From positions 1 through 51,643 of the forward strand of contig JAGAOS010000024.1 of the NCBI GenBank assembly GCA_017623575.1: a stretch of DNA of 51,643 nucleotides, read 5' to 3'. Both the position numbers and the translations under genes were made by a program. Each line of letters begins with the position of its first letter. Position 1 is the stretch's first letter. Under the pieces are notes generated by a model. That model saw only the letters and a list, made by a program, of their open reading frames with translations. It made no database searches and was not told where the DNA came from. Source of the stretch: Clostridia bacterium. GTDB lineage: Bacteria > Bacillota > Clostridia > Oscillospirales > Acutalibacteraceae. Of this stretch, positions 1-14,664 are shown piece after piece.

Positions 1-1848
1 AAAGACTTCAACAGTTAAATCTTCCCACTGTTTTGCACGAAGATATTGGTCTGTTGATTTTCTGTATGCTTCTGCTTGGTCGAAATTAACCTTAAAACTG
101 AAGTACAGATTAGTCCTCCCCATATTTGATAGCAGCCTGTGTTGCGGCAAACGAAGTGAGGAGATTGTGGCATTACTCTTTTTACGACCATTTATACCTA
201 ACGAGGTTGGCGAATTATCGGGACTAAATCTGAGATACCAGTCAAAACCGTCTTCTCTCACAACGACTTTTGTAACAAAAGCCTTTATGACATCTTCCGA
301 TATGTTCTCAACGGCATCTGGATTTACCGACTGTTCCAAATAGAACTTTAAGATTTTGATTTTCTCATCGTGAGAAACATCTGTTGGTTTCTTCTCTTGA
401 GGTTTTAAATCTATGAGTTCTTTTTGGAGTTTTCCAATCTGCGTCTCGATTTCCTCTTTCTTGGTCTGAAAGGTCTCGCGAGTAATTTCGCCGTCTGCTC
501 TCATCTCAATAAGATTATTTAAACGCTTATTTAATTTTTCAATCTCGGTTTCTTTTTGCTTGATTAGCCGAGTATTATTTTTGGTATCTTGTTTATCATC
601 GATATGTTTATCCAACATCGATTGTGCGAGTGCTAAGATTTCAACAGTATTATGCAGATACTCTTTAAAGATATGTTTAACCATCATCTGTAATTTCCAA
701 CCTGCTATCATTGGAGTTCTACACACACCCTCAGTAGATAATCCTTTGTTAGTTCTGGTTGCAATCGTACCCGTCCTTATGGAACTATAACACTGATATC
801 CGTACTGCGTAGCACACTCAGTCTTATGCCATATTTTACGGTTGAACTTATGACCACATTCGCAAACAAGTAATTCTGTCCAAACATCGCAACCTCTCTT
901 TTCTCCGAGAGGTTTTCTTCTGCCTGATACATCGGTAGGTAGTTCTCTGCGTCGCTTGGCAATCATCTTTTGAACCTTATCAAATTCTTCTTCGGTGATA
1001 ATCGGTTCGTGTCTGCCACGCACCTTGGTATATTCCATATCACCAAAATTACGAATTCGTTTCTGCTCAAGATAATCAGATACAAACTCTTTATGGTAAG
1101 TAATAATACCACAGTAAAATGAATTCTGTAATATCTTTGAGATATTGCTTTCGTGCCAATTTGATTTGCCGGTTGCAGTAAGTCTTCCTTCCTGTTCTAA
1201 ACGAAATTTAATAGCACGAATACCAACGCCGTCAAGATACCAGTCGAATATCATTCTTACGGTTTGTGCTTGGTCGGGGTTGATAACAAAATCAACTTGC
1301 TTCTTGCCGTTGATGATTTGTTCTACACGGTCATACCCAAGTATATTACCGTTACCGTAGTAAACACCGTTATCCATTGATGTTTGTTGACCACTCTTAA
1401 CGCGAACGGAAGTCTTACGGCTTTCGTCTTGTGCTAAGGTAGCCATAATGGTCAATCTTAATTCACCATCACCATCAAATGTACGGATATTATCGTTGAT
1501 AAAGTAAACCTCTACGCCTTTAGATTTAAGCTCTCGTGTATATTGCAGGGTATCAACTGTATTTCTGGCAAAACGAGAGACCTCTCTTGTCAAAATCAAA
1601 TCAAATTCGCCGTAATCAGCGTCTTCAATCATTTGCATAAATTGAGGTCTCTTCTTTGCGGATGTTCCAGTTATACCCTCATCAACATACATTCTTATAA
1701 CTTCCCACTCTGGATGTTGAGCAAGGATTGGTTTGTACCAATCTTTCTGGTTTTCCAAAGCGGAAAGTTGAGCTTCGTGCTCTGTAGAAACTCTTGCGTA
1801 AATTACAACCCTACGCATTTCTGGACTCTCAATTAGACCTTGATACAT
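1..1848 (-). CDS. Large serine recombinase / phage integrase (C-terminal end cut by window edge)
   Basis: Reading leftward from ATG at 1848 gives 616 uninterrupted codons to the window edge. The start has an AGGAGGA ribosome site 5 bases upstream. The resolvase domain begins RRVVIYARVSTE, with the catalytic Ser in ARVS, and continues with the VDEGITGTS and LTREVSRFARN motifs. A recombinase domain follows, then a zinc-ribbon region (LLVCECGHKFNRK), then a coiled-coil with KQKETEIEKLNKRLNNL. This is the usual layout of phage large serine integrases, which recombine attP with attB. The last visible residues (QWEDLTVEVF) resemble the end of a second integrase tail at 11907-12049, so only a few codons are probably missing. 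The attachment core lies within this gene at 129-141. Confidence 0.93.
   Translation of the reverse strand, partial: MYQGLIESPEMRRVVIYARVSTEHEAQLSALENQKDWYKPILAQHPEWEVIRMYVDEGITGTSAKKRPQFMQMIEDADYGEFDLILTREVSRFARNTVDTLQYTRELKSKGVEVYFINDNIRTFDGDGELRLTIMATLAQDESRKTSVRVKSGQQTSMDNGVYYGNGNILGYDRVEQIINGKKQVDFVINPDQAQTVRMIFDWYLDGVGIRAIKFRLEQEGRLTATGKSNWHESNISKILQNSFYCGIITYHKEFVSDYLEQKRIRNFGDMEYTKVRGRHEPIITEEEFDKVQKMIAKRRRELPTDVSGRRKPLGEKRGCDVWTELLVCECGHKFNRKIWHKTECATQYGYQCYSSIRTGTIATRTNKGLSTEGVCRTPMIAGWKLQMMVKHIFKEYLHNTVEILALAQSMLDKHIDDKQDTKNNTRLIKQKETEIEKLNKRLNNLIEMRADGEITRETFQTKKEEIETQIGKLQKELIDLKPQEKKPTDVSHDEKIKILKFYLEQSVNPDAVENISEDVIKAFVTKVVVREDGFDWYLRFSPDNSPTSLGINGRKKSNATISSLRLPQHRLLSNMGRTNLYFSFKVNFDQAEAYRKSTDQYLRAKQWEDLTVEVF
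129..141. other. Left copy of attachment core (within integrase gene)
   Basis: This is one copy of the 13-bp direct repeat shared with 12050-12062. On the integrase coding strand it reads CACAGGCTGCTAT. It sits in a 48- to 50-bp imperfect dyad: left arm TCCTCACTTCGTTTG, and an inverted right arm beyond the core ending GGGGAGGA. That is the size and symmetry expected of a serine-integrase attP. The crossover dinucleotide cannot be fixed from sequence alone. Confidence 0.65.
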
Positions 1849-1882
1849 TCATATCCTCCTATTCTGTTTGGGTATGTATATA

Positions 1883-2053
1883 TCATTGAGTGCGACATCT
1901 GAAATCAGATATATCGACGCATCTCTTATAATCATTGAGAATATTTATAAAAATGTGTTGGTCAATGAGTCCTTGTTTATAGAGGTTTTCAATTAGTTTA
2001 AGCGCAGCATAAATCTTATTTGAGTGAGCAGAAGTGAGTTCTTTATTCTGCAT
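1883..2053 (-). CDS. Small SHOCT-like protein upstream of integrase
   Basis: This 56-codon frame starts at ATG 2053 behind AAGGA and ends 34 bases before the integrase start, so the two are probably co-transcribed. The core LIENLYKQGLIDQHIFINILNDYKR follows the pattern of the SHOCT short helical domain, which is often found beside recombinases or fused to larger proteins. Its role is unknown; a DNA-binding or recombination-directionality function would be a guess. There are no membrane segments or cysteine motifs. Confidence that it is translated comes from the ribosome site and the tight spacing. Confidence 0.6.
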   Translation of the reverse strand: MQNKELTSAHSNKIYAALKLIENLYKQGLIDQHIFINILNDYKRCVDISDFRCRTQ

Positions 2054-2069
2054 ACTCAATCCTTATTTG

Positions 2070-2555
2070 TTACATAGAAGCGTCAAATAAAGAGAGTTGT
2101 TCGTACTCGGGCGTGGTTTCTTTACTCACACCTGTACTTCCGAAACCACCTTCGCCACGGTCGGTTTCGTCAAGCTCATCGACTTCATTGAAGTCAACGG
2201 CTAAGAACGGAGTAATTACAATCTGTGCAAGACGGTCTCCAATATGGATTGTCTGACACTCTTGAGAGTCATTATGTAGGGCTACCTTAATTTCACCGCG
2301 ATAATCGGGGTCGATAACACCTACACAGTTCGCAGGTCGTAAACCGCGCTTAGAGGCAAGACCGCTTCGTGCGTAAACCAAACCTGCATAACCATCGGGA
2401 ATTTCCATACATACACCAGTACCAATCAGTCTGGTTTCACCAACGGGAATACGAACCGATGTTTCATTGGAATATAAATCGAAACCTGCGGCACGGTCAG
2501 AACCGCGTGTGGGGATAGTAGCATTACTATCTGTTTTCTTAATGTTAATTACCAT
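2070..2555 (-). CDS. dut: dUTP diphosphatase
   Basis: Trimeric-type dUTPase, 161 aa, hydrolysing dUTP to dUMP and PPi, which keeps uracil out of replicating phage DNA and supplies dUMP. The motifs appear in order: AAGFDLYS, ARSGLASKRGL, NCVGVIDPDYRGEIKVAL, GDRLAQIVI and the C-terminal Phe-rich motif V RGEGGFGSTG, which closes the active site. I chose ATG 2555 (MVINIKKTDSN) because AAGGATAC lies just upstream. The frame extends 22 codons further but overlaps the PTH2 gene without a better ribosome site. It is part of a closely packed leftward early operon. Confidence 0.95.
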   Translation of the reverse strand: MVINIKKTDSNATIPTRGSDRAAGFDLYSNETSVRIPVGETRLIGTGVCMEIPDGYAGLVYARSGLASKRGLRPANCVGVIDPDYRGEIKVALHNDSQECQTIHIGDRLAQIVITPFLAVDFNEVDELDETDRGEGGFGSTGVSKETTPEYEQLSLFDASM

Positions 2556-2571
2556 TATGTATCCTTTCGTT

Positions 2572-3000
2572 CTACTTATAAAGTTGATACTTCTTACTGA
2601 TTGTGTGAGCAGTATCGTCATCTAAGGGCTTAAACCATATCCCCGTTAGTGTTGTGCCGTCCTCTTCTTCGGGTTCGAGTTCGGTAAAACAGCGGTCGTA
2701 GATTAAGCCATAGTCTTCGTTTTGAACCAAACCCAAGTCATCAGCCATTGTTTTGGCTTTTAGGAGATGGTTCTTATTTCGTGCTTCGCATATTGTTTTA
2801 ACAAAAGAGCCGTTTACATATCCTTCATAGATTTCTTTAGGGATGATAACTTCACAGTCGTAACCTTTAAAGTCATCGTACACCTTAAGCCCAGCACGGA
2901 GTCCTCTTGTCCAATATGCTTCTGCACAATGTCCGACCTGTGCGGCGAGTTTCCCCGCCGACATATTCAGGTCTTTACGCATAATAAATAATCGTCTCAT
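2572..3000 (-). CDS. Peptidyl-tRNA hydrolase, PTH2 family
   Basis: A 142-aa protein beginning MRRLFIMRKDLNMSAGKLAAQVGHCAEAY, the PTH2 signature (basic strand, then GKLAAQxxHA). PTH2 enzymes release peptides from peptidyl-tRNA and are typical of archaea and eukaryotes, but relatives occur in bacteria and phages. The C-terminal part is longer and more acidic than in cellular PTH2 (ELEPEEEDGTTLTGIWFKPLDDD). The frame starts directly after the stop of the 30-codon membrane peptide (TAA then ATG), and its stop lies 16 bases before the dut start, so translation is probably coupled. The bacterial Pth1-type housekeeping enzyme is not in this window. Confidence 0.85.
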   Translation of the reverse strand: MRRLFIMRKDLNMSAGKLAAQVGHCAEAYWTRGLRAGLKVYDDFKGYDCEVIIPKEIYEGYVNGSFVKTICEARNKNHLLKAKTMADDLGLVQNEDYGLIYDRCFTELEPEEEDGTTLTGIWFKPLDDDTAHTISKKYQLYK

Positions 3001-3093
3001 TTAAAACCTCGGTCTCATATTATTGTTATTATAGAAAAACATCATCGACATTAAGATAAGAAATAAGCCGAATATGTATATATTGATGTCCAT
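3001..3093 (-). CDS. Putative 30-aa single-pass membrane peptide
   Basis: The frame MDINIYIFGLFLILMSMMFF, followed by an Asn-rich basic tail, is one hydrophobic segment of about 18 residues with a positive C-terminus. The start at 3093 has GGAG 10 bases upstream, overlapping the end of the preceding gene. The stop abuts the PTH2 ATG, filling the space between the two genes exactly. I do not recognise a family. The packed context and ribosome site suggest it is translated. Confidence 0.5.
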   Translation of the reverse strand: MDINIYIFGLFLILMSMMFFYNNNNMRPRF

Positions 3094-3094
3094 T

Positions 3095-3280
3095 TTAATC
3101 GGGCTCCTTTATATAAAGCCCACAATGACACATTCCGCTTTCTTGCTCGCGGAAATCCTTACACATACATTTTGTGTCTGGATTTTTAATAAGATTACAC
3201 GGGCAATACCCGTTATTATCTTTTAATCTCTTACGGATTTCATTTACCGTCTCTGTGTCTGGATTAAGTCTTATCGCCAT
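3095..3280 (-). CDS. Ferredoxin-thioredoxin reductase catalytic-chain-like mini protein
   Basis: A 61-aa protein with six cysteines in the order CPC, CMC, CHC: GYCPC then nine residues, CMCKDFREQ, then GMCHCGLY. This matches the ferredoxin:thioredoxin reductase catalytic chain, in which four Cys hold a 4Fe-4S cluster and two form the redox disulfide, although the first gap is shorter (9 against 16 residues). I chose ATG 3280 (MAIRLNPDTETV) because AAGGAG lies 7 bases upstream; an in-frame ATG at 3325 has no comparable site. A thioredoxin-reducing or thiol-redox role alongside the neighbouring NrdG-like Fe-S protein is an inference. Confidence 0.75.
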   Translation of the reverse strand: MAIRLNPDTETVNEIRKRLKDNNGYCPCNLIKNPDTKCMCKDFREQESGMCHCGLYIKEPD

Positions 3281-3443
3281 CAGCCGTCTCCTTATCTCTG
3301 TAAGCTCTGCCGTCTCTAAAGCCAATGCTATACGCTTCGCTTAAATTATCAGATTTTGCGCCAACTCTACACAGACCTACTGTAAACATAGAGATGAGAT
3401 TTGATAACGGAATAATCCAAAGTAAATGCCAAGCACTAATCAT
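3264..3443 (-). CDS. Small phage membrane protein of unknown function
   Basis: A 59-aa frame starting MISAWHLLWIIPLSNLISMFTVGLC, one membrane segment, followed by a charged tail (YSIGFRDGRAYRDKE). The ATG at 3443 overlaps the stop of the P-loop gene by eight bases and has GAAAGGA upstream. Its 3' end overlaps the start of the FTR-like gene by 17 bases. Small MISAWHLLWIIP-type proteins are common in phages of gut Firmicutes, but I know no function for them. Confidence 0.65.
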   Translation of the reverse strand: MISAWHLLWIIPLSNLISMFTVGLCRVGAKSDNLSEAYSIGFRDGRAYRDKETADGDKT

Positions 3444-3975
3444 TGTCGTTTTCCTTTCCGAGAACTCCTAAGATTTCTCTGACTGCGGTATCATATCCGT
3501 CTACATCGCCCGTGATAGTACCATATTCGATACTTCTATCGTGTAACATAGCTCGAATATTATCTTTTAATTCACAAGCACCTTGCTCGTCCTGATGTCT
3601 GCCTGTGGGGTTATACGGTTTTGTGCGAAGAATTAAAAAGTTGATATTGTTATATGAATTGAATACATCCATTACGGTCTTATTGAAGTTCTCCGTGAGA
3701 TTGCTGTTCTCATTGTAGATAATACTTAGCGGTAATGGGGAGTCGGTGACAATAACATCAACCTTATCTTCACATCTGGATATCTTAAAGAACTGTTTAC
3801 CGAAGATATACGCTTGATTTTTAAACACGGCTGTATTTTCTTCCCACACTTTATCTTTTGCATACTCTGTTACCAGTTCTGCGTTAACGCCGTGCATCTT
3901 AAGTTGTGAGAATATGTATGCGGCGCCCGTACTTTTACCAGCACCGGGCTCGCCGAACAAATTGACCAAAATCAT
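3436..3975 (-). CDS. Phage P-loop ATP-binding protein (kinase-like AAA family)
   Basis: A 179-aa protein with the Walker A motif GEPGAGKST at residues 8-16 and a Walker B-like strand VDVIVTDSP near residue 77. The overall fold resembles small nucleotide or metabolite kinases and AAA_28-type ATPases. The substrate cannot be told from sequence. The gene ends inside the start of the small membrane protein and begins 12 bases after the NrdG-like gene, so it is mid-operon in the early region. It is not a terminase: too short and lacking the nuclease motifs. Confidence 0.75.
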   Translation of the reverse strand: MILVNLFGEPGAGKSTGAAYIFSQLKMHGVNAELVTEYAKDKVWEENTAVFKNQAYIFGKQFFKISRCEDKVDVIVTDSPLPLSIIYNENSNLTENFNKTVMDVFNSYNNINFLILRTKPYNPTGRHQDEQGACELKDNIRAMLHDRSIEYGTITGDVDGYDTAVREILGVLGKENDND

Positions 3976-3986
3976 AATATCACTCC

Positions 3987-4484
3987 TTACGAAATCTTAA
4001 CAGCAAACTGATTATCGCTTGCAAGCTTTACGCCAAGAACCTCGTCATAGTGAGGAGTTTGATTAGGTATGTATCTACCGAACTTTACGATAATGTTGTC
4101 GTATTGTTTCAGTAGGTTAATTTCTGTTTCGATTTCCTCTGGATTATATCCAGTATAGATAACGATTGTATCGTTACAGTCGTACCAACTTCTTACGGCA
4201 GATACAAACGAAATCACTTCGTGGAAATCATCAAACGGTTCAAGACCGCCACAGACAATAGCCTGTGTGACTGGGTTACTCAGGTACTTCCTCATAATCA
4301 CATCAATTCCGATGTCTTTCTCGGGGAGTGAGGCAAGATGACTGTTTTGGCACATCTTCTTGCCACACTCTTTTTCGCATTTGAAAGAACAGTTCGGAAA
4401 GGCAATGTATAACGAGGGTGTTTTGTAATCCTGAAACCACTCGGTTTTTACTGCCTTACCACAGGATGTTCTGGATAAATACAA
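3987..4484 (-). CDS. NrdG-like 4Fe-4S (radical-SAM-type) protein, 5' end uncertain
   Basis: The recognisable protein begins near YLSRTSCGKAVKTEWFQDYK and continues TPSLYIAFPNCSFKCEKECGKKMCQN, a cluster-binding loop of CxxxCxxxC plus a further Cys. It then has VCGGLEPFDD and IVIYTGYNPEE, as in anaerobic ribonucleotide reductase activases. The canonical radical-SAM spacing is CxxxCxxC, so the loop is a variant. I placed the start at TTG 4484, where family-like sequence begins, but it has no ribosome site. The open frame runs on to 4595 only by reading antisense through the variable repeat. I infer the natural start was lost at a deletion junction near 4485. No nrdD partner is present. Confidence 0.7.
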   Translation of the reverse strand: MYLSRTSCGKAVKTEWFQDYKTPSLYIAFPNCSFKCEKECGKKMCQNSHLASLPEKDIGIDVIMRKYLSNPVTQAIVCGGLEPFDDFHEVISFVSAVRSWYDCNDTIVIYTGYNPEEIETEINLLKQYDNIIVKFGRYIPNQTPHYDEVLGVKLASDNQFAVKIS

Positions 4485-4662
4485 GATTACACCGTCCGAG
4501 GTCGCTGCTATTGGTGGTGGATGGGTAGTTGCACAATACTGGTGGTTGCGTTCGCCTAATATTAGCAACACTACTTCCTTCTGGTATGTCCACAACTTTG
4601 GTTACGTCAACGTCAACTTCGCCAACAACTCGCTTGGCGTCTGCCCCTGCTTCTCTATCTAA
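4435..4662 (+). pseudogene. Headless 3' fragment of the DGR target protein (C-type-lectin VR end)
   Basis: The + frame from 4435 to the TAA at 4660-4662 ends AQYWWLRSPNISNTT, then the variable segment, then NNSLGVCPCFSI. YWWLRSP followed by a variable Asn-rich stretch and GVCP is typical of the C-terminal half of DGR-diversified lectin-fold proteins. A TGA at 4432 and the lack of any ATG/GTG/TTG before the repeat mean there is no translatable start. Upstream sequence becomes the antisense of the NrdG-like gene. So this is the last 45 or so codons of a target gene whose body has been deleted. A promoterless fusion peptide is possible but unsupported. Confidence 0.7.
4544..4649 (+). repeat. DGR variable repeat (VR)
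   Basis: This 106-bp segment aligns without gaps to the template repeat at 5615-5720. I count 13 mismatches, every one at a position that is A in the template (34 template adenines in all). They change eight AAC/AAT codons, giving Ser, Tyr, His, Phe, Tyr, Val, Phe and Leu. Adenine-only substitution is the hallmark of DGR mutagenic homing. The invariant 3' part TCTGCCCCTG would serve as the initiation-of-homing end. Confidence 0.95.
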
Positions 4663-4683
4663 AAATGGGCATATACACAAAGT

Positions 4684-4711
4684 CCTGCTCGGTGCGTAAG
4701 CATCGGGCAGG
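4684..4711 (+). promoter_or_regulatory. Hairpin downstream of VR (DGR target-recognition hairpin)
   Basis: CCTGCTCGGTGC, a GTAA loop, then GCATCGGGCAGG form a 12-bp stem with two G-T wobbles, 34 bases past the VR end. In the Bordetella phage DGR a GC-rich hairpin just downstream of VR is needed for efficient homing, and position and shape agree here. A transcription terminator is less likely because no T-run follows. Confidence 0.65.
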
Positions 4712-4771
4712 CGGTCAAAAAATTATCTGGGCGGCTTGCCCGCCTTATGTGAAACAAAGGAGCGATTTGTA

Positions 4772-5566
4772 ATGGCTGTGTTAAGAAGTCAACGCAAAAT
4801 ATCCGATACAGAGTTTGAAAATACATTTATGCGATTGTACTGTTTTAGTCGCGAACGAACATCTCCTGTGTCGAAGCGAAGAAAGCGATGGCTATGTACC
4901 AACATTGATTTAACTATGAATAAAATCTACCGAAATATAATGGAGATAAACGAATGTTATTTTAGGGATAAAGTAGCCAAGCAGAAGTATATCAATCAGT
5001 TATCGGACAGCTCCGTTGAAATGTTGTTTTCTTTAGAGAAACCCTTAATGGTGCTATGGAATATACAGCGTTATGAAACCAAAACAATGGCTCATTGGGT
5101 TACTCAAATCAATAAAGAAATATCATTACTTAATTTAATTCACGATACAGAAAGAGATGATAAGGTTATGATTATAGATTGGCGTACTATTCACTCTATG
5201 AAATTCTTAAGTAATATGTCGGCTCTCCATAGATACACTCACGGTAAGGTTACGAACGCGTCCGTTCGTTATGATGAAACCGAGGGTGCATTACTTATAG
5301 ACCTTATAGATGATGCGTTTTATTCTCTATTAAAGGCAAATCAGAAAATTCCGACTACTAAGGAAGAGTATATTGTACGCAGTAAGTATATCTCTAAATC
5401 TATCTCTTGTTTAAGACAACTAAACCGAAGAATGTTAGCTTACTTCAATTTGATGCAATATAGCGAACGCGTTATGCGTGAATGGTCTAATATGCTAATT
5501 GAGGAACTTGATTTATTATACGGTTTACAAAAGTCTGATAAGAGTCGTTTCAAAAATCTTCAATAA
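4772..5566 (+). CDS. Avd-like DGR accessory protein with duplicated helical-bundle domain
   Basis: A 264-aa, largely helical, basic protein lying between VR and TR, where DGRs carry avd. Avd is a four-helix-bundle partner of the reverse transcriptase that binds the template RNA. The segment SSVEMLFSLEKPLMVLWNIQRYETKTMAHWVTQINKEISLL (first half) aligns gaplessly with a C-terminal segment containing LNRRMLAYFNLMQYSERVMREWSNMLIEELDLL. About 10 of 44 residues are identical, including Asn, Tyr, Met, Trp and Glu. The protein is therefore probably two fused bundles and twice normal Avd length. ATG 4772 (MAVLRSQRK) follows AAAGGAG; a 12-codon extension to 4736 has no such site. Confidence 0.75.
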   Translation: MAVLRSQRKISDTEFENTFMRLYCFSRERTSPVSKRRKRWLCTNIDLTMNKIYRNIMEINECYFRDKVAKQKYINQLSDSSVEMLFSLEKPLMVLWNIQRYETKTMAHWVTQINKEISLLNLIHDTERDDKVMIIDWRTIHSMKFLSNMSALHRYTHGKVTNASVRYDETEGALLIDLIDDAFYSLLKANQKIPTTKEEYIVRSKYISKSISCLRQLNRRMLAYFNLMQYSERVMREWSNMLIEELDLLYGLQKSDKSRFKNLQ

Positions 5567-6034
5567 ACGACCTTATATATATGGGTTATGTTCTATCATC
5601 CGCCCGGCTATTCGGGTTGCGTTCGCCTAATATTAGCAACACTACTAACTTCTGGAATGTCAACAACAATGGTAACGTCAACAACAACAACGCCAACAAC
5701 TCGAATGGCGTCTGCCCCTGATTTTCATACATCAAGTAACCACTTCGTGAGGGCGAAAATTGAAATCATAACAAGATTTATGTATGAGAAGGAGAACATA
5801 CCCCTCTGTGTGTAAGCACAGTAAATAATACACATCTTTGCTTAAAAAGATATATGCTATGACAGCATCCTGTTTAATCTCGCGAGATATAGTAATTACG
5901 CCTCGATTTGTAGGCGCTTCTAAACAATATGACTGTTTATTGTTTGGATGTCACAAGATTATTTGCGGCGACAACCAACAGTTAATAATACCGCCGTGCA
6001 GGGTAATATCAAAATCTGAAAAGGAGTTGAGGTT
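5567..6034 (+). ncRNA. Template-repeat RNA region between avd-like gene and reverse transcriptase
   Basis: This 468-base stretch has no convincing gene. It holds the template repeat (5615-5720), a 6-bp GTAA-loop hairpin at 5806-5821 (CTGTGT/GCACAG) and about 210 further bases before the RT start. In DGRs the TR plus the spacer to rt is transcribed as the RNA the enzyme copies, and the spacer is needed for priming. The extent of the functional RNA is inferred, not seen. Confidence 0.6.
5615..5720 (+). repeat. DGR template repeat (TR)
   Basis: This is the unmutated donor of the VR at 4544-4649. In the VR frame it reads LRSPNISNTTNFWNVNNNGNVNNNNANNSNGVCP, so nearly all variable codons are AAC or AAT, placing adenines at codon positions 1 and 2. 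It lies 315 bases upstream of the reverse transcriptase on the same strand. Homology begins at GGTTGCG and ends at CCCCTG. Confidence 0.95.
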
Positions 6035-7327
6035 ATGACAAAGTATCAAAGAGCAAAAGCTCGTATCGCTCGCGACAGAGCACTTAAAGCGGAGAAACGC
6101 TCTGAAAAGTTTAAATACAACGATAACTTCAACAGCGTTATCTCTACACAACACTTCGTTGAGGCACTCGGTAAGTGTCGTAAGGGTGTGAGTTGGAAAG
6201 GTAGCGTACAGAAATATACGCAGAACGCTATTGTAGAAATCAGTAGAACCGTTAACTCTCTGGAGAACGGCGTGCTACCTGAATTATCAAGCGTTAATCG
6301 TATTGTTTTATATGAAAGAGGTAAGCGCAGAGAGATTGTGCCTATCACAATCCGAGACCGTATGACTCAGCGTGTTTTATGTGACTACGCTCTTGTACCC
6401 GTATTGCAGAACTCATTGATTTATGACAATGGCGCGAGTATGAAAGATAAGGGCGTGGATTTCGCACGGAAAAGATTAGTTGGTCATTTACAAAAGGCTG
6501 TAAAAGAATATGGCTCTGAATTCTATATCTTAACATTTGATTTTAAGAGTTTCTTTGACAGTATCCCACATCAAACTTGCCTCGATGTACTTAATCAAAA
6601 CTTTACCGATAGATACATTAAGGGTTTAACTATGGCTATCATCAAATCCTATGAGAAGTCTGTGATTAACAGAACTTACACTGGAGAAGAAAGGGAGAAG
6701 ATGTTAGAGCGATTGGATAAGAACCTGTCGCACGGCATTTGTCTCGGTAGCCAAATCTCGCAAATAATGGCTCTGGTTGTTCCTAACAAATTAGACCATT
6801 ATGTGAAAGACCAAAGAAAGTTTAAGCATTATATCAGATATATGGATGATGGTATGGTTATTTCTGATAGTAAAGAAGCCTTACATCAACTGTATGCCGA
6901 AATGAAGCAAATCGCAGATGAGCTTGGATTAACATTTAATGATAAGAAAACGAGGATTATAAAATCAACTCGTGGCTTTGTGTTTATGAAAGTTCGATAT
7001 AGGATTGCTCCCACCGGCAAAATCATCAAATCTCTAACTAAGGCTGGAATTGTGCGTATGAGACGCAAACTCAAAAAGTTCCGTAGGTTAGTAGATAGAG
7101 GCGATATGACTCTGGATGATGTTTATAATTCGATGCAGTCGTGGCTCGCTCATACAAAAGTTGCGATGTCATATCACGCGAAAAGGAATATGTTAAAACT
7201 CTACAATGATTTATTTGATGGTTATAAATTAACCAAGAAATACGAACATATCAAGGGAGGTAAGAACGGTGAATTATTACAAACTGATAAGTGGCACGAA
7301 TTTCGTTGGAATTGCTACTCAGCATAA
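6035..7327 (+). CDS. DGR reverse transcriptase
   Basis: A 430-aa reverse transcriptase that copies TR RNA with adenine-directed errors into VR. Visible RT blocks are RDRMTQRVLCDYAL (motif 1/2), FDFKSFFDSIPH (catalytic Asp of motif A), GICLGSQISQIMAL, YIRYMDDGMVIS (motif C YMDD) and LGLTFNDKKTRII (motif D). The GxxxSQ form of motif 4 (here LGSQISQ) separates DGR enzymes from group II intron RTs, which usually carry QG. There is no maturase or endonuclease domain. ATG 6035 follows AAAAGGAG. The 3' end overlaps the next gene by 59 bases, so expression is probably coupled. Confidence 0.95.
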   Translation: MTKYQRAKARIARDRALKAEKRSEKFKYNDNFNSVISTQHFVEALGKCRKGVSWKGSVQKYTQNAIVEISRTVNSLENGVLPELSSVNRIVLYERGKRREIVPITIRDRMTQRVLCDYALVPVLQNSLIYDNGASMKDKGVDFARKRLVGHLQKAVKEYGSEFYILTFDFKSFFDSIPHQTCLDVLNQNFTDRYIKGLTMAIIKSYEKSVINRTYTGEEREKMLERLDKNLSHGICLGSQISQIMALVVPNKLDHYVKDQRKFKHYIRYMDDGMVISDSKEALHQLYAEMKQIADELGLTFNDKKTRIIKSTRGFVFMKVRYRIAPTGKIIKSLTKAGIVRMRRKLKKFRRLVDRGDMTLDDVYNSMQSWLAHTKVAMSYHAKRNMLKLYNDLFDGYKLTKKYEHIKGGKNGELLQTDKWHEFRWNCYSA

Positions 7328-8027
7328 TTTCCGTGAGTTCCAGCACAGGCACAGTATTATTCTGGCTTGTGATGAAGAGCGTGCTCAGTATGTTCAATGC
7401 GGTGATTTATTCTATCGCGCAGATTGGATGGTTCCTGTTACCACCGATAAAGTCTCCTACGAAACAGTTGAGTTAGTCAGAATTGAAAAAGACGAGTATG
7501 ACATATTACTTGCCGCTGTTGAAAAGGGAGAAGAAATCGAAATTGAACAGGAGCAAAATGAACCTGTCGAAGAAACTCCCGTAGTTGACCCCATCGAAGA
7601 AGTAACTCTCGATTATCTTAAAGAGGCAAAAATTAACGAGATGAGCTATGTTTGTAATCAGACAATTACAAATGGTTTTGATGTGGTGTTAAGTGATGGT
7701 AATACATATCACTTCTCTCTAACAACTCAAGACCAACTTAATCTTATTACTTTATCCTCTATGGTTGCAAGTGGCGAGACACAAATTCCGTATCACGCCG
7801 ATGATGAGTTATGCAGATTTTACTCTGCCGAAGATATCAATACTATCATCACCGTTGCAACACAATTTAAAACATATCAGGTTTCTTACTTTAATGCTTT
7901 GAAAATGTATATCAATAGCTTAAAGAGAAAGAAAACTGTAGCCGCCGTTCAGTACGGTATGGCTATTCCCGAGGAACATCAATCCGAGGTACTTAAGACA
8001 ATACTCGCTGTGAATGGTGGTGAGTAA
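7269..8027 (+). CDS. DUF4376-like phage protein
   Basis: A 252-aa protein starting at GTG 7269 behind GGGAGG, inside the end of the RT gene. The N-terminal third contains YVQCGDLFYRADWMVPVTT, then an acidic linker of about 30 residues rich in Glu and Pro. The C-terminal part (LDYLKEAKINEMSYVCNQTITNGFDVVLSDGNTYHFSLTTQDQLNL) follows the DUF4376 pattern of phage tail-associated proteins. The precise role is unknown; it may relate to the tail fibre or its assembly, since such genes usually flank tail modules. Here no tail genes remain. Confidence 0.6.
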   Translation: MNYYKLISGTNFVGIATQHNFREFQHRHSIILACDEERAQYVQCGDLFYRADWMVPVTTDKVSYETVELVRIEKDEYDILLAAVEKGEEIEIEQEQNEPVEETPVVDPIEEVTLDYLKEAKINEMSYVCNQTITNGFDVVLSDGNTYHFSLTTQDQLNLITLSSMVASGETQIPYHADDELCRFYSAEDINTIITVATQFKTYQVSYFNALKMYINSLKRKKTVAAVQYGMAIPEEHQSEVLKTILAVNGGE

Positions 8028-8466
8028 TGTGAAAAAGGTTCTGAAGCCCGCTATATTATTTAGCGTTGGTGGAACGGTGTATTTACTTATTGAAGTTCTA
8101 TGGAGAGCACTGAGAGGTAGTACGCCTACACATTGGACTATGTTTATTCTCGGCGGTCTGTGTTTCCTTGCTATCGGGGCAATTAACGAATATCTTTCGT
8201 GGGATACTCCGTTTATTATACAGACCTTTATAGGCACCGCTATTGTGTTGGTGCTTGAATTCATATTTGGGTGCATACTTAACCTATGGCTCGGTCTCGG
8301 TGTTTGGGATTACTCAGATGCACCATTCAATCTATTTGGACAGATATGCCTACCGTTTGCTGTTGCTTGGTTATTTTTGGTTGGCATAGCTATTATTCTT
8401 GACGACTATTTACGCTACTGGCTTTTCAAAGAAGATAAGCCACATTATAAATGGTCTCTAAACTAA
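8014..8466 (+). CDS. CmpB-like multi-pass membrane protein
   Basis: A 150-aa protein with four hydrophobic segments. The stretch GCILNLWLGLGVWDYSDAPFNLFGQICLPFAVAWLFL matches the conserved part of the family named putative ABC-transporter type IV (CmpB-like). Members occur in clostridial genomes and in their phages; transport has not been shown to my knowledge. The start is uncertain: ATG 8014 overlaps the previous stop, and an in-frame GTG at 8029 lies closer to a GGTGGTGAG purine stretch. It sits just before the lysis genes. Confidence 0.65.
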   Translation: MVVSNVKKVLKPAILFSVGGTVYLLIEVLWRALRGSTPTHWTMFILGGLCFLAIGAINEYLSWDTPFIIQTFIGTAIVLVLEFIFGCILNLWLGLGVWDYSDAPFNLFGQICLPFAVAWLFLVGIAIILDDYLRYWLFKEDKPHYKWSLN

Positions 8467-8524
8467 ATAAGGCATACAAATTGGAGTCTTGAAATATAGG
8501 CTCCTTTTTGTATATAAAACTGGT

Positions 8525-8555
8525 CTTTTATGTCACGCGACATAAAGGGCTTTTT
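8525..8555 (+). terminator. Hairpin with T-run before the endolysin gene
   Basis: TTTATGTC, loop ACGC, GACATAAA forms an 8-bp perfect stem extended by a G-T and a C-G pair, with TTTTT at 8551-8555. A second weaker hairpin (GGAG/CTCC) lies at about 8481-8503. This probably attenuates transcription into the lysis genes. It lies 19 bases before the endolysin start. Confidence 0.55.
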
Positions 8556-8573
8556 GTATTTAAGGAGGTATAT

Positions 8574-10517
8574 ATGAAGTATACGGCATCCAACAAACCT
8601 TTAGTTTGTATGCAAACTAACAGCACCTGTTATAAGGGTACAAACAAAATGACAGTTAAGGGCGTGTTGTGGCATAGCACCGGTGCGAATAATCCTACAC
8701 TCAAACGCTATGTGCAACCAAGTGATACGCCAGATAAAAGAGATACTGTTACGCTCGCTCAGATTGGTAAGAACGCTTATAAGAACGACTGGAACCATAT
8801 CGAGCGTCAGGCTGGCTTGAACTGTTGGATTGGTAAACTTGCCGACGGTACTGTCACCACAATCCAGACTATGCCTTGGGATTATCGCCCGTGGGGTTGT
8901 GGTAGTGGTTCTAAGGGTTCCTGCAACTCTGGCTGGATACAGTTTGAGATTTGCGAGGACGGTTTAACCGATAAAACATACTTCAATGCAGTATATAAAG
9001 AGGCGTGCGAAATCACAGCGTACCTCTGCAAAATGTTTAATATTGACCCTAACGGTACTGTTAATGTAAATGGTGTCAAGGTTCCAACAATTCTTTGTCA
9101 CCAAGACAGTTACAAACTTGGAATGGGTAGCAATCATAGCGATGTTAACCATTGGTTCCCGAAACACGGCAAATCTATGGCTACAGCAAGAAAGGATGTT
9201 GCTGCGTTACTCGCGGCAGATAAGTCTGCTACATCTACTCCTGTTTCTACCACAGGGAAGACCTATTCCGTTGTAACTAAGATTAACAAATACGCTACTG
9301 CTTCTGATGCACAAAGCAAAAAGAACAGTAAGGGTACTTATGAGGCTGGAACATATTATATCTATTCCAAATATCCGAACGGATATAACGGTATGTATAA
9401 CATTTCCACCGATAAGACAGGAGCAAGCGCAGGTAGTTGGATTAACCCTGCGGAGAATGTAGTTCCGAAGCCCGCAACTCCGACCACAGATACAACTCAA
9501 AAGCTGTATCGAGTGCGTAAGTCCAAGGATGACGCAAAATCCCAAGTTGGCGCATATAGCGTTCTCGACAACGCCAAAGATGCGTGTAACAAGGCTGGAG
9601 CTGGATATAAGGTTTTTGACTGGAACTACAAGGTTGTATATGAATACACGGCACCTGTCGAAACCAAACCTGAAACCAAACCTACTCAGCCGACACAACC
9701 CACTCCTGAGGTTGAGAAGCCCAAGGAGGAAGTAAAGGTTGTGGCAGTATATGATTTAGACTTCCCAGAGAAAAACTTAATCGTAGATAAAAGTATTTCT
9801 CGCACAGAGACTGACTGTGTAAAGGCAATCAAAAAGATTGTTTCTAACAATAGTGGTTTTGATGTTGAAATTGCAAAAGCATTTTGGAAGCTCGCTCCCA
9901 AATACAATATCGACCCTGTGATGGCTATTTCGCAGTCTATTCTTGAGACAGGCTGGTTTAAATATGCGGGTTCTGCGGTTACACCAGAACAACATAATTA
10001 CTGTGGTCTCGGCGTTACAAGTAACGGTGTTGAGGGTGGTAAGTTTAATACTATCGAAGATGGTGTAACGGCACAGTTACAACATTTATTTGCTTATGGC
10101 TCTAAGGACGCTTTAAATGAAACGATAGTTGACCCGCGTTTTAAATATGTTACCAGAGGTATTGCACCTTACTGGCAACAGTTAGCAGGTAGATGGGCTT
10201 GCCCGGGCTATGACACAAAAACATACGATACTCCCGCCAAGGCTATGGCTGCTAATAATACTTACGGTCAGAAAATCCGTGCGATTTACAATCAGATTGT
10301 AGGTATGGCTGTGACAGATGCGGATATTGAAAAATATTTTCCGACAGAGTTACCTCAGGAAACACCCGATAAGGAACCTGTTGTTACACCGCCCACAGAT
10401 ATTGTTGATACACCAGAAAAGACACAAGACACAAGTAAGATTGTGAACATCATTATTGAAGTGATTAAGAAATTACTTGAGTCTTTGATTGAAATTTTCC
10501 GCAAAGGAACAAAATAA
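8574..10517 (+). CDS. Two-domain endolysin: N-acetylmuramoyl-L-alanine amidase plus glucosaminidase
   Basis: A 647-aa peptidoglycan hydrolase. The N-terminal Amidase_2 (PGRP-like) domain has the zinc ligands in VLWHSTGANN and later in LCHQDSYKLGMGSNHSDVNHWF. An SH3-like stretch (KINKYATASDAQSKKNSKGTYEAGTYYIYSK) and a SPOR-like stretch (LYRVRKSKDDAKSQVGAYSVL) follow, then a Pro/Thr/Lys linker. A glucosaminidase (LytG/FlgJ type) domain contains MAISQSILETGWF with the catalytic Glu, and NYCGLGVT. The C-terminus ends in a hydrophobic/amphipathic helix (NIIIEVIKKLLESLIEIF). ATG 8574 (MKYTASNK) follows AAGGAGG. It is unusually large for an endolysin and could also aid entry. Confidence 0.9.
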   Translation: MKYTASNKPLVCMQTNSTCYKGTNKMTVKGVLWHSTGANNPTLKRYVQPSDTPDKRDTVTLAQIGKNAYKNDWNHIERQAGLNCWIGKLADGTVTTIQTMPWDYRPWGCGSGSKGSCNSGWIQFEICEDGLTDKTYFNAVYKEACEITAYLCKMFNIDPNGTVNVNGVKVPTILCHQDSYKLGMGSNHSDVNHWFPKHGKSMATARKDVAALLAADKSATSTPVSTTGKTYSVVTKINKYATASDAQSKKNSKGTYEAGTYYIYSKYPNGYNGMYNISTDKTGASAGSWINPAENVVPKPATPTTDTTQKLYRVRKSKDDAKSQVGAYSVLDNAKDACNKAGAGYKVFDWNYKVVYEYTAPVETKPETKPTQPTQPTPEVEKPKEEVKVVAVYDLDFPEKNLIVDKSISRTETDCVKAIKKIVSNNSGFDVEIAKAFWKLAPKYNIDPVMAISQSILETGWFKYAGSAVTPEQHNYCGLGVTSNGVEGGKFNTIEDGVTAQLQHLFAYGSKDALNETIVDPRFKYVTRGIAPYWQQLAGRWACPGYDTKTYDTPAKAMAANNTYGQKIRAIYNQIVGMAVTDADIEKYFPTELPQETPDKEPVVTPPTDIVDTPEKTQDTSKIVNIIIEVIKKLLESLIEIFRKGTK

Positions 10518-10529
10518 GGAGGTAGGTTT

Positions 10530-10895
10530 ATGAAGTTAATTACTGATTTTATTTCTGCTTATGGTGTTGAGATTATGATGGCAATTATTACTTTTGTCGC
10601 TACATATCTCGGTGCTTACTTGAAGAAGGTTATCACCAAGTGGCTTGATAACAAAACAAAGCAGGATATCGCAAAAACTTGCGTGAAGGCTGTCGAGCAA
10701 ATCTATAAGGATTTACACGGCGAAGAGAAGTTACAGGAAGCGCTAAAAGCTGCATCCGAGATGTTACAGTCTGAAAATATCGCTGTTACTGACATCGAAC
10801 TCAGGATGCTTATTGAGGCTGCCGTAGCCGAATTCAATGATGCCTTCAACAAGACTACAACTACTGAAACTGCCGACGCTCCCGCAGAGGCATAA
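10530..10895 (+). CDS. Phage holin, LLH family
   Basis: A 121-aa protein with one N-terminal membrane segment (IMMAIITFVATYLGAYL), then a basic turn (KKVITKWLDNKTKQDI) and an amphipathic helical domain with VEQIYKDLHGEEKLQEAL, the pattern of LLH-type holins. It would form the membrane lesion that releases or activates the endolysin. ATG 10530 follows AAGGAGGTAGG, 12 bases after the endolysin stop. The C-terminal tail is Thr/Ala-rich. Confidence 0.88.
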   Translation: MKLITDFISAYGVEIMMAIITFVATYLGAYLKKVITKWLDNKTKQDIAKTCVKAVEQIYKDLHGEEKLQEALKAASEMLQSENIAVTDIELRMLIEAAVAEFNDAFNKTTTTETADAPAEA

Positions 10896-10907
10896 TTAGA
10901 AGTTGCA

Positions 10908-10933
10908 AGGGTGCTACTTAGCGGTGGCACCCT
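10908..10933 (+). terminator. Hairpin between holin and last prophage gene
   Basis: AGGGTGC and GCACCCT form a 7-bp stem with a 12-base loop. The following sequence lacks a clear T-run, so it may be a weak terminator or an mRNA-stability element rather than a full stop. Confidence 0.4.
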
Positions 10934-10956
10934 ATTATTGATTGGAGGTGATATGA

Positions 10957-11529
10957 TTGAAAGGACTTGACGAATTTTTAAATATTTTCGGTGATATCAC
11001 CGTACTACAAGTAGTTGAGCTTATTCTTGCAATCGTGTTCTTATGGGGCATTTATAAGCAAGTGAAGAAGCACTTTGATAGCAAGGCAAAGGAAGCGTTA
11101 GAAAAAGCTGAAATTGAAAAACAACGCGATGCCGATATTAAAGAAGCACTTGATGCCGTACATAAGTATCCTCAGTATCGTCAACAGAGTATTGATATTC
11201 AGCACAAACTTGAAAGCCAAATTCAAGAACTGAAAGATTTACACAAAGATACCGTTACACAACTCAATACTGTGAGCGAAACCGTACATCGTATGGAAGA
11301 AACAGAAACTCGCAGAGAGCGTAATAAGATGAGAGACACTTTGTTGCAAAGTCATCGCTACTACACCAATCCGAACACGAACCCCTCTGGTTCTTGGACA
11401 CGAGTAGAGTCAGAAACATTCTGGGAACTTTATTCGGAATACGAAGCCGCAGGCGGCAACGGATATATGCACACGGATGTCGTGCCCGCAATGAAGTTGC
11501 TTAAGGTTATTGATATCGGTGAAGAATAA
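10957..11529 (+). CDS. Membrane-anchored coiled-coil phage protein
   Basis: A 190-aa protein starting at TTG 10957, eight bases after GGAGG. An N-terminal membrane segment (VLQVVELILAIVFLWGIYKQV) is followed by a long charged coiled-coil (residues about 35-125) and a C-terminal globular end (RVESETFWELYSEYEAAGGNGYMHTDVVPAMKLLKVI). Proteins of this shape commonly accompany holins in Firmicutes phages, but the role is not established; a spanin-like or holin-regulating function is speculation. A strong terminator follows nine bases downstream. Confidence 0.7.
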   Translation: MKGLDEFLNIFGDITVLQVVELILAIVFLWGIYKQVKKHFDSKAKEALEKAEIEKQRDADIKEALDAVHKYPQYRQQSIDIQHKLESQIQELKDLHKDTVTQLNTVSETVHRMEETETRRERNKMRDTLLQSHRYYTNPNTNPSGSWTRVESETFWELYSEYEAAGGNGYMHTDVVPAMKLLKVIDIGEE

Positions 11530-11537
11530 AAATTAAG

Positions 11538-11575
11538 ATGGAGATTGACCTTTATTGGTTGGTCTCCATTTTTTT
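11538..11575 (+). terminator. Rho-independent terminator of the lysis genes
   Basis: ATGGAGATTGACC and GGTTGGTCTCCAT pair around a short loop, followed by seven T residues. It closes the rightward prophage transcript. Confidence 0.9.
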
Positions 11576-11856
11576 GCGCGACGACCTTTTAAACCTACGC
11601 CACGCCCACACAGTTCGTTTCTGACGCGAGTTTCGGGCTTAGGCAGGTAAGTTGTAGGCTAATCAGAAAACCTCTAAAAACAGCCTTAAAACGCGTTCTA
11701 CGGGGTGTTATTATTTGCACATTTTCTAATGTTTTAAAGTGCAATTCTTGCACATTTACAAGGGCTCCAAAGTGCAAAAATGGCACTTTGAATAATGTTT
11801 ATAATTATAGACAAAAAGTCGGTTTTTGTTCATAATTATTGACATTATCATTAGGG
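11576..11856. other. Non-coding prophage right end with GTGCAA/TTGCAC motifs
   Basis: About 280 bases without a gene. It contains a perfect 8-bp inverted repeat (CAAAGTGC/GCACTTTG, 11768-11790) and several further TTGCACATTT or AAAGTGCAA copies in both orientations between about 11720 and 11790. These could be operator or recombination-accessory sites. No promoter or ORF in it convinces me. Confidence 0.5.
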
Positions 11857-11896
11857 TAAAAAGAAAGGGCTACAAGACCGAAGTCTCATAGCCCTT
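11857..11896 (-). terminator. Terminator after integrase tail, now after ppdK
   Basis: AAGGGCTA/TAGCCCTT form an 8-bp stem with an inner AGAC-CGAA-GTCT hairpin. On the minus strand it is followed by CTTTTT. It lies just past the stop of the orphan integrase tail, so in the excised phage it would end the integrase transcript. In the integrated state it would end the ppdK transcript. Confidence 0.75.
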
Positions 11897-11906
11897 AACT
11901 GTGTGA

Positions 11907-12049
11907 TTAAATGAATACCGAAATATTCAGGTCTAACCAATTATAAATTCTGTGCCTTGTAGAGTATGCGTAGAGATAAGTCTTGGCTTGACTTAAATCT
12001 ATTGAGAACTCTTGTGCTTTGACGAAATTACTTTTTCCTACTTTCGTTA
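11907..12049 (-). pseudogene. Orphan integrase C-terminal tail adjoining ppdK
   Basis: Reading leftward from the core, one frame gives LTKVGKSNF..., then FSIDLSQAKTYLYAYSTRHRIYNWLDLNISVFI and a TAA at 11907-11909. This aligns gaplessly with the last visible residues of the integrase at 1-128 (FKVNFDQAEAYRKSTDQYLRAKQWEDLTVEVF). The two share F, QA, Y, R, W, DL, V and F at matching positions. There is no start codon of its own. I infer it is the C-terminal coding end that the integrase gene has in the circular phage, separated from the gene by integration. The first seven codons' worth of DNA also encodes the end of PpdK in another frame. Confidence 0.7.
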
Positions 12050-14664
12050 ATAGCAGCCTGTGCAGCAGCGAGGCGAGCAATCGGAACACGGAAGGGAGAG
12101 CAAGATACATAGTCGAGGCCGATCTTGTGGCAGAACTCAACAGATACGGGGTCGCCGCCGTGCTCACCGCAGATACCGCAGTGGATTGCAGGACGGGTAG
12201 CCTTACCCTTTTCAACTGCCATTTCCATAAGCTGGCCTACACCGTTCTGGTCAAGCTTAGCAAAGGGATCGTTCTCATAAATCTTGCTGTCATAGTAAGC
12301 AGTAAGGAACTTACCGGCATCGTCACGGCTGAAGCCGAAGGTCATCTGGGTAAGATCGTTGGTACCGAAGCAGAAGAACTCAGCCTCTTTAGCGATCTCG
12401 TCAGCAGTAAGACAAGCTCTGGGGATTTCCATCATAGTACCAACCTCGTACTTGAGCTCTACGCCTGCGGCAGCGATCTCAGCATCAGCAGTAGCTACAA
12501 CAACATCCTTAACGAACTTCATTTCTTTTACTTCACCGGTAAGAGGAATCATAATTTCGGGAACCATATCCCAGTCGGGATGAGCCTTCTTAACAGTGAT
12601 AGCTGCACGGATAACAGCGGTGGTCTGCATCTTTGCAATTTCAGGATAGGTAACTGCAAGACGGCAACCACGGTGACCCATCATGGGGTTGAACTCGTGG
12701 AGACCTGTGATGATATTCTTAATATCCTCAACGGTTTTGCCCTGAGCCTTAGCCAAAGCGGCGATGTCAGCCTCTTCGGTAGGAACGAACTCATGGAGAG
12801 GAGGATCAAGGAAACGGATACAAACAGGATTGCCCTCGAGTGCTTCGTAAAGCTTCTCAAAGTCGCCCTGCTGGTAGGGAAGAATCTTAGCAAGAGCTGC
12901 TTCGCGACCCTCTACGGTGTCAGAGCAGATCATCTCACGGAAAGCAGCGATTCTGTCTGCCTCGAAGAACATGTGCTCGGTACGGCAAAGACCGATACCC
13001 TCAGCACCAAGCTCGCGAGCTTTTTTAGCGTCTGTAGGAGTATCTGCATTGGTACGAACCTTAAGAGTTCTGTACTTGTCTGCCCAATCCATAATTCTGC
13101 CGAACTCACCTGCGATTTCAGCATCAACGGTGGGGATGATGCCGTCGTAGATGTTACCGGTAGAACCGTCAATAGAGATATAGTCACCCTCATTGTAGGT
13201 TTTGCCTGCAAGAGTGAACTTTTTATTTGCTTCATCCATAATGATTTCGCCGCAACCGGAAACGCAGCAGGTACCCATACCACGAGCAACAACGGCTGCG
13301 TGAGAGGTCATACCGCCACGAACGGTGAGGATACCCTGAGAAGCCTTCATACCGGTGATGTCTTCGGGAGAGGTCTCAAGACGAACGAGGATAACCTTTT
13401 CGCCGCGGTTGTTCCAAGCCTCTGCATCTTCAGCGGTGAATACAACCTTACCGCAAGCAGCACCTGGGGAAGCACCAAGGCCCTTACCAGCAGGGGTAGC
13501 AGCCTTAAGAGCTTTTACGTCAAACTGGGGATGGAGAAGTGTATCAAGGTTACGGGGGTCGATCATAGCAACAGCCTGTTTCTCATCGATCATACCCTCG
13601 TCAACGAGGTCACAAGCGATTTTAAGAGCAGCCTTAGCGGTTCTCTTACCGTTACGGGTCTGGAGCATATAAAGCTTACCGTGCTCAACGGTGAACTCCA
13701 TATCCTGCATATCACGGTAGTGATCTTCCAAAGTTGCGCAAACTTCGTTAAACTGTTTGAATGCTTCGGGGAATTTGTCAGCCATTTCAGCAATAGGCAT
13801 AGGAGTACGAACACCGGCAACAACATCTTCGCCCTGTGCGTTGGTAAGGAACTCACCCATAAGACCTTTTTCACCGGTAGCGGGGTCACGGGTAAAGGCA
13901 ACACCGGTACCGCAATCGTCACCCATATTACCGAAAGCCATCATCTGAACGTTAACAGCGGTACCCCAAGAATAAGGAATATCGTTGTCACGACGGTAAA
14001 CGTTTGCACGGGGGTTGTCCCAAGAACGGAAAACAGCCTCAACAGCGCCCATTAACTGCTCCTTAGGATCAGAGGGGAAGTCTTTACCGATTTTGTTTTT
14101 GTACTCAGCCTTGAACTGCTCAGCAAGGATTTTAAGATCATCAGCGGTAAGCTCAACATCCTGAGTAACGCCTTTTTCTTCCTTCATTTTGTCGATAAGC
14201 TCTTCAAAATACTTCTTACCAACTTCCATAACAACATCAGAGTACATCTGAATGAAACGACGATAGCAGTCATAAGCCCAACGAGCATTGCCGGACTGTG
14301 CAGCCATGGTTTCAACAACTTCCTCGTTAAGACCGAGGTTAAGGATGGTATCCATCATACCGGGCATAGATGCACGAGCACCTGAACGAACTGAAACGAG
14401 AAGGGGATTTTCCTTATCACCGAATTTTTTGCCGGTGATTTCTTCCATTTTATCAATGTATTCCATAATTTCGGCCTGAATATCATCGTTGATTTTTCTG
14501 CCGTCCTCATAGTACTGAGTACAAGCCTCAGTGGTTACGGTAAAGCCCTGGGGAACAGGAAGACCGATTTTGGTCATTTCTGCAAGGTTGGCACCTTTAC
14601 CGCCGAGAAGCTCACGCATAGAAGCGTCGCCCTCTTTGAAAAGATAAACAAACTTTTTGCTCAT
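12028..14664 (-). CDS. ppdK: Pyruvate, phosphate dikinase
   Basis: An 878-aa enzyme interconverting pyruvate + ATP + Pi and PEP + AMP + PPi, used in clostridial glycolysis and gluconeogenesis. The ATP-grasp N-terminus starts KKFVYLFKEGDASMRELLGGKGANLAEM. The central swivelling domain has the phospho-His motif GGMTSHAAVVARGMGTCCVSG, and the C-terminal PEP/pyruvate barrel includes GLCRTEHMFF and HCGICGEHGGDP with the catalytic Cys. ATG 14664 follows AGGAGG. The last seven codons (INESRKK) lie beyond the phage core and are therefore phage-supplied. The gene appears to stay intact and functional after integration. Confidence 0.98.
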   Translation of the reverse strand: MSKKFVYLFKEGDASMRELLGGKGANLAEMTKIGLPVPQGFTVTTEACTQYYEDGRKINDDIQAEIMEYIDKMEEITGKKFGDKENPLLVSVRSGARASMPGMMDTILNLGLNEEVVETMAAQSGNARWAYDCYRRFIQMYSDVVMEVGKKYFEELIDKMKEEKGVTQDVELTADDLKILAEQFKAEYKNKIGKDFPSDPKEQLMGAVEAVFRSWDNPRANVYRRDNDIPYSWGTAVNVQMMAFGNMGDDCGTGVAFTRDPATGEKGLMGEFLTNAQGEDVVAGVRTPMPIAEMADKFPEAFKQFNEVCATLEDHYRDMQDMEFTVEHGKLYMLQTRNGKRTAKAALKIACDLVDEGMIDEKQAVAMIDPRNLDTLLHPQFDVKALKAATPAGKGLGASPGAACGKVVFTAEDAEAWNNRGEKVILVRLETSPEDITGMKASQGILTVRGGMTSHAAVVARGMGTCCVSGCGEIIMDEANKKFTLAGKTYNEGDYISIDGSTGNIYDGIIPTVDAEIAGEFGRIMDWADKYRTLKVRTNADTPTDAKKARELGAEGIGLCRTEHMFFEADRIAAFREMICSDTVEGREAALAKILPYQQGDFEKLYEALEGNPVCIRFLDPPLHEFVPTEEADIAALAKAQGKTVEDIKNIITGLHEFNPMMGHRGCRLAVTYPEIAKMQTTAVIRAAITVKKAHPDWDMVPEIMIPLTGEVKEMKFVKDVVVATADAEIAAAGVELKYEVGTMMEIPRACLTADEIAKEAEFFCFGTNDLTQMTFGFSRDDAGKFLTAYYDSKIYENDPFAKLDQNGVGQLMEMAVEKGKATRPAIHCGICGEHGGDPVSVEFCHKIGLDYVSCSPFRVPIARLAAAQAAINESRKK
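12050..12062. other. Right copy of attachment core (3' end of ppdK)
   Basis: This copy is identical to 129-141. In the ppdK frame it covers the codons for AQAAI. Phage-side DNA just beyond it (TAACGAAAGTAGGA on the minus strand) is an imperfect inverse of the integrase-side arm TCCTCACTTCGTTT. Joining the phage-side arm here to the integrase-side arm regenerates a dyad of about 48 bp around the core, as expected for attP. Confidence 0.7.

Follow-up and report, generated by a model that had tools for sequence, protein, structure and literature searches.

A putative attachment site inside the reading frame of a large serine integrase, where integration at ppdK very probably severs a conserved C-terminal tail

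For the canonical large serine integrases (phiC31, Bxb1, A118, SPbeta) the phage attachment site (attP) lies beside the integrase gene (int) and not inside it. In the mycobacteriophages BPs and Brujita, known for integration-dependent immunity, the attachment site is located in a regulatory gene and integration alters the end of the encoded protein, the interrupted gene being that of the repressor and not of the integrase. The integrase of the Myxococcus phage Mx8 is a tyrosine recombinase. An attP within the int coding sequence has been described for Mx8 (and Mx9), where integration creates a new int 3' end, and the altered Mx8 enzyme is reported as active with a changed specificity (excerpts of PMC6070905). 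The archaeal suicidal integrases (SSV1, pTN3, pT26-2) carry their own attachment site in the integrase gene, which is broken upon integration; these are tyrosine integrases whose split pieces are reported to be inactive, and in the excerpted review such recombinases are called exclusive to archaea (PMC8371274). A central question for serine integrases is what keeps them from running in reverse.

The window analyzed here, 51.6 kb in length, is the entire contig C51 of a 70%-complete metagenome-assembled genome, and its left end falls inside an int gene. The 13-mer ATAGCAGCCTGTG (hereafter the core) occurs in it exactly twice, on the plus strand, at 129 and at 12050. The first copy (129..141, a minus-strand feature like the genes around it) starts at codon 570 and is in frame with the int open reading frame (ORF; 1848..1, minus strand, 616 codons, open at the contig edge), and the second (12050..12062, minus strand) sits in the last codons of ppdK, the gene for pyruvate phosphate dikinase (12028..14664, minus strand). 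The latter is the target gene and obtains its last codons from the element, empty ends being present in G002 and G007. The minus-strand ORF that follows the ppdK copy of the core ends in RIYNWLDLNISVFI and a stop codon. The first-pass annotation had claimed the exact repeat, with one copy in the int frame and one in ppdK, as well as a different tail encoded past the ppdK copy, and both observations were confirmed. Its gapless alignment of the left tail (tailL) with the right tail (tailR), with F, QA, Y, R, W, DL, V and F in common, was likewise reproduced by eye. The overall similarity of the two is low (normalized BLOSUM62 score 0.18), and both were recognized as integrase tails because of the family motif and not because of their mutual alignment. 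Chance was considered as the origin of the core repeat and ruled out, as about 0.0015 occurrences are expected in the window versus the two found; it is also contradicted by the matches of relatives, which break at the core.

Up to the core the integrase is a large serine recombinase (codons 1-569; 142..1848, minus strand), with the Resolvase (PF00239, 2.4e-31) and Recombinase (PF07508, 6.6e-27) domains and the catalytic-domain motif YARVS present as YARVST at residue 17. A zinc ribbon was matched neither in P0001 nor in L038 at an E-value of 0.001 and only weakly, below the cut-off, in L226, and CxC...C residues are visible by eye. Solved structures found by sequence cover only residues 1-305 of the query integrase. 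Searching Rfam gave no match at gathering scores.

The closest relative of the element is L038 (G158) from IMG/VR, a circularly closed record of about 121 kb whose ends share 120 identical bases. Its integrase, 96% identical to that of the window over the body, reads through the core into a tail that is identical in 51 of 51 residues to tailR (11907..12049, minus strand), the native integrase C-terminus that has been severed together with its stop codon; the L039 integrase has the same end. The DNA flanking the single L038 site matches the ends of the window element (95.1% over 2459 bases and 95.3% over 6149 bases), both matches stopping at the core, so that this phage form is a 95% relative of the window element and not the same strain. 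Given the undivided gene in L038 and these flank matches, the window holds attL (int-core-tailL) and attR (ppdK-core-tailR). Because the L038 integrase runs through the core into tailR, attP is located within int, whose last ~50 residues are cut off upon integration. An attP within int had been claimed previously, and the circular phage with an undivided gene and the lysogens with a divided one bear this out, as does the alignment of related integrases across the core, in which the L038 sequence past the core matches tailR. L038 was the only phage record found closed, an exact end overlap being present in none of five others tested. We consider this anatomy of a virus of gut bacteria, with attP inside the int frame and a conserved tail cut off by integration at ppdK, as very probable from the sequence comparisons.

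The integrated element of the window (142..12049) is a 12-kb counterpart of the 121-kb phage G158. At window positions 4458/4459 the alignment passes directly from position 62417 of G158 to 74524, and about 109 kb are missing, including the structural and replication genes read in G158. The junction is clean, with no clear microhomology seen, and the window element, without these ~109 kb, may be defective. It contains a diversity-generating retroelement (DGR; 4544-4655, 4736-5566, 5615-5726 and 6035-7327) with a reverse transcriptase, an Avd-like gene and a repeat pair that is 87% alike, and in G158 the repeat matching this DGR ends a 2555-residue protein. Elsewhere in the window, 19178-26995 codes for a repetitive surface protein of 2605 residues whose C-terminus resembles an anchor.

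In the intact attP of L038 the int-side arm (window 139..162, minus strand) and the tailR arm (window 12036..12059, minus strand, now behind ppdK) form a dyad with 14 of 23 pairs (shuffle p 0.008), and in four of four intact attPs the dyad is centered on core positions 3-4. The corresponding p-values were 0.001 for L040 and 0.038 for L200, and L199 was not significant (0.18). It had been proposed that either tail makes a dyad with the int-side arm; this stood for tailR, and for tailL no dyad was found in an ungapped comparison (10 of 23 pairs, p 0.69), which leaves a dyad formed equally by both tails unsupported. The hybrid attachment sites tested had no dyad either. From the dyad center the crossover dinucleotide is predicted as CA at 138-139, between codons 570 and 571. 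Past the core, the attP arm specifies the beginning of the integrase tail in one frame and, in a second, the replacement end of ppdK (INESRKK, INESRK and others, each followed by a stop codon), so this stretch of DNA codes doubly, for the enzyme tail and for the new end of the host gene. The empty ppdK ends of G002 and G007, which belong to the same genus, read QAAIKESK and QAAISDQK before the stop codon, and neither an integrase nor a tail was seen in the stretch read downstream of them.

A close relative of the integrase (E <= 1e-100) was found in 23 of the 398 genomes of the window's family, the window's own included, and outside the window 18 of 24 matches end at query residues 558-569, at or just before the core. 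The integrase ORFs were classified by core and tail motif, 51 source identifiers resulting in 46 rows (none from L099, L209, L220, L223, L225 or L230): 24 had the core without the tail motif (23 distinct), 10 had core and tail, six had the tail without the core and six had neither. By eye, and outside this table, L225 has the core without the tail, L099, L220 and L223 the tail without the core, and L230 both. The ten tabulated ORFs with core and tail are those of the phage contigs L038/L039, L040/L041/L002, L199/L204 and L200/L202, representing four phage lineages, plus that of the window; L002 was treated as a misbinned phage contig (genome titled Alistipes), and the ppdK of that genome (L133) was set aside. 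Against the simple rule, the second integrase of G370 (L230, G370_2), which lies on a bacterial contig, carries both the core and an in-frame tail, and tail loss in lysogens is therefore not universal. The integrases of L003-L009, L012, L013 and L042 continue past the core with a ppdK-like end (QAAI or QAAL before a stop codon), followed in a closely read subset (L003, L004, L005, L013) by a terminator-like hairpin, both features being read by eye. Next to some of the 24 ORFs with the core alone (e.g., G226, G370, G227) the tail of another element follows in a different frame.

On the other side of the elements, 25 ppdK ends were parsed from genomes chosen for their integrase, 22 of them with at least 300 nt downstream, and besides the window's own an orphan tail follows ppdK in 10 of these 22 (eight flagged by script; L237 and L247 accepted by a wider motif). 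Four genomes (G150, G156, G226, G227) carry ppdK with a tail and the severed integrase on one contig, 22-33 kb apart. No ppdK was detected in five viral records (the same query matched 11 of 18 records overall) or in a second set of seven, three of which were also in the first. Of the other genomes of the genus, seven in number, five (L266, L268-L271; G004, G005, G001, G003, G006) have a ppdK match that stops early, at residue 161-681 of 878, which could result if contigs break close to an occupied site.

Elements with different content share this integrase and ppdK site, namely a phage with portal and terminase (G150, L187-L188), a type I restriction-modification island (G227, L254) and an element with AbiH (G226, L260). 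One gene of the G150 phage (L188, 2608-5502) matches the RNA-dependent RNA polymerase family PF05183 (1.8e-18). In L101 (G037) and L224 (G206) the same ppdK site is used in opposite orientation, int reading into ppdK antisense. Two serine integrases adjoin each other in L009, L010, L011 and L012; in L009 and L012 one of them is tailed or without an attachment site inside, and the other is severed and has the core.

Counted from the core, orphan tail and integrase share a codon phase in 11 of 11 elements (one phase in nine of them, the other in two). Five of these pairs are on one contig (window, G150, G156, G226, G227), and the other six were paired by genome and combine an integrase on one contig with a ppdK tail on another; for G227 and G370 the first of two integrases was used, and L101 and L224 were excluded. 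Similarity of the bodies predicts similarity of the tails (Mantel r 0.86, p 5e-5, n 11), and still does so when each close pair is represented by a single member (r 0.76, p 1e-4, n 9). Together with the comparison of L038 to the lysogens, this phase concordance and co-variation uphold the earlier proposal that integration exchanges the integrase tail. In nine of 10 tail pairs pN was lower than pS (e.g., 16 synonymous to one non-synonymous change for G150/G156), the exception being L040/L002, whose sole difference is non-synonymous. The possibility that the tails are random ORFs was rejected by the mostly synonymous change, the phase match and the co-variation with the body. That the tail is selected although it is cut from the gene in the prophage points to its use in the circular state. 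In L010 and L011, which have no attachment site inside int, the tail comes soon after the body and the core-bearing stretch of L038 is absent, which suggests that attP lies in a linker inserted between body and tail. Purifying selection on the tails, together with their recurrence in these relatives without an internal site, argues against a neutral overlap, in which attP would lie in int only since a compact int-attP module travels well and the loss of the tail would have no effect. We regard such an overlap as unlikely, even if the core-bearing linker tolerates many unrelated endings of 3-41 residues and compactness has been suggested for the archaeal case (excerpts of PMC8371274).

The left tail (1..128, minus strand) is a foreign integrase tail that int reads in frame, and in another frame it also encodes a ppdK-like end (QAAIKYGED, then a stop codon). 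Among the orphan tails, those of G025 (0.40), G239 (0.31) and G319 (0.32) come closest to it, and the integrases of these three share 45-47% identity with that of L038. The tail that G370_2 carries in frame compares to tailL at 0.42, and the G370_2 body at 0.30 to the G025 class and at 0.49-0.56 to the other classes; judged by these values G370_2 would be either a second chimera or a lineage natively bearing this tail. The left tail looks like the right-hand end of a different element that targets ppdK and, belonging to another tail class, indirectly supports that a second element or a scar probably lies beyond the left contig edge. Beyond the integrase there are further tails or second cores in G226, G156, G227 and G370, and in G227 only host-like ORFs come next (by eye), which suggests a scar. 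A degenerate 26-base pattern for the source of tailL matched nothing in IMG/VR, and the first 141 bases of the window are shared with no other contig of its own genome.

Exactly 141 bp separate the start of the contig from the boundary of core and body, and 141 is a common largest assembly k-mer, so that this start fits a branch of the assembly graph at that point. That the graph probably branched at the core would agree with tailL being a chimera created at the repeated core during metagenome assembly. We nevertheless consider such an artefact very improbable, since a repeat of 13 bp is too short for a false join at such a k-mer, a branch there would mean that tailL plus core has two real contexts, and the severed layout recurs in 10 other ppdK loci independently of tailL.

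In the mechanism that we propose, an attP of ~48 bp would lie in the linker between the recombinase body and the conserved C-terminal tail, inside the int frame. Strand exchange at CA would, upon integration at the end of ppdK, join body and core to whatever followed ppdK, giving a tail-less or wrong-tailed enzyme, and would leave the core and the orphan tail behind ppdK at the other end of the element, where ppdK would gain its replacement end from the same attP arm, read in a second frame. Upon excision, body and tail would be reunited. As the site beside int in the window has another tail in frame, the lysogen would encode a chimeric integrase. The full-length enzyme from the circular form would carry out integration, and the form made in the lysogen would either excise together with a directionality factor or be quiescent. 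At the level of sequence, the location of attP, the severing, the phase match and the selection on the tail can be taken as established. That the tail is an integration-specific switch, with excision performed by the other form, is a real possibility that we put somewhat short of probable. More tentatively still, and with some doubt, recombination itself may switch the enzyme: the tailed form, encoded by the circle only, would integrate, and the tail-less form, encoded by the prophage only, would be set for excision without re-integration, the rearrangement thus serving as a memory of direction, and stacking of elements at ppdK would swap tails and generate chimeras, as in the window and perhaps in G370.

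The conserved tail would also be expected if its loss inactivates the enzyme, the prophage then leaving only with a complete integrase from a related element. Related elements stacked at the ppdK site (G226, G156, G227, G370) would make such helpers available, and the archaeal tyrosine integrases offer a precedent (excerpts of PMC8371274); however, the catalytic and DNA-binding domains are intact in the lysogen and the altered Mx8 enzyme stayed active (excerpts of PMC6070905), and we hold this suicidal reading to be rather improbable. The two natural forms of the enzyme differ only by a tail that recombination removes, and the role of the C-terminus is therefore directly testable. In the integrase family studied, enzymes mined from integrated copies come without their native end, and the survey of Durrant et al., as excerpted, takes integrants as its starting point (PMC10083194).

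An attP inside int is thus already known from Mx8 and the archaeal suicidal integrases, and the serine-integrase version apparently is not: among the matches listed from the open-licence PMC literature there was no serine integrase with attP inside int, and a case elsewhere is possible. With BPs and Brujita the present locus shares that integration changes the end of a protein, which is the repressor there and the integrase here. With phiC31, Bxb1, A118 and SPbeta it shares the serine recombinase domains and an attP dyad around a central dinucleotide, but in those systems the int gene is unchanged by integration. Like the archaeal suicidal integrases, the integrase described here has the attachment site inside its gene; those are tyrosine integrases, whereas serine recombinase domains are found here and only the last ~50 residues are lost. 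As in Mx8, attP lies in int and integration provides a new 3' end, and the difference from Mx8 is that the enzyme here belongs to the large serine integrases and has a conserved tail.
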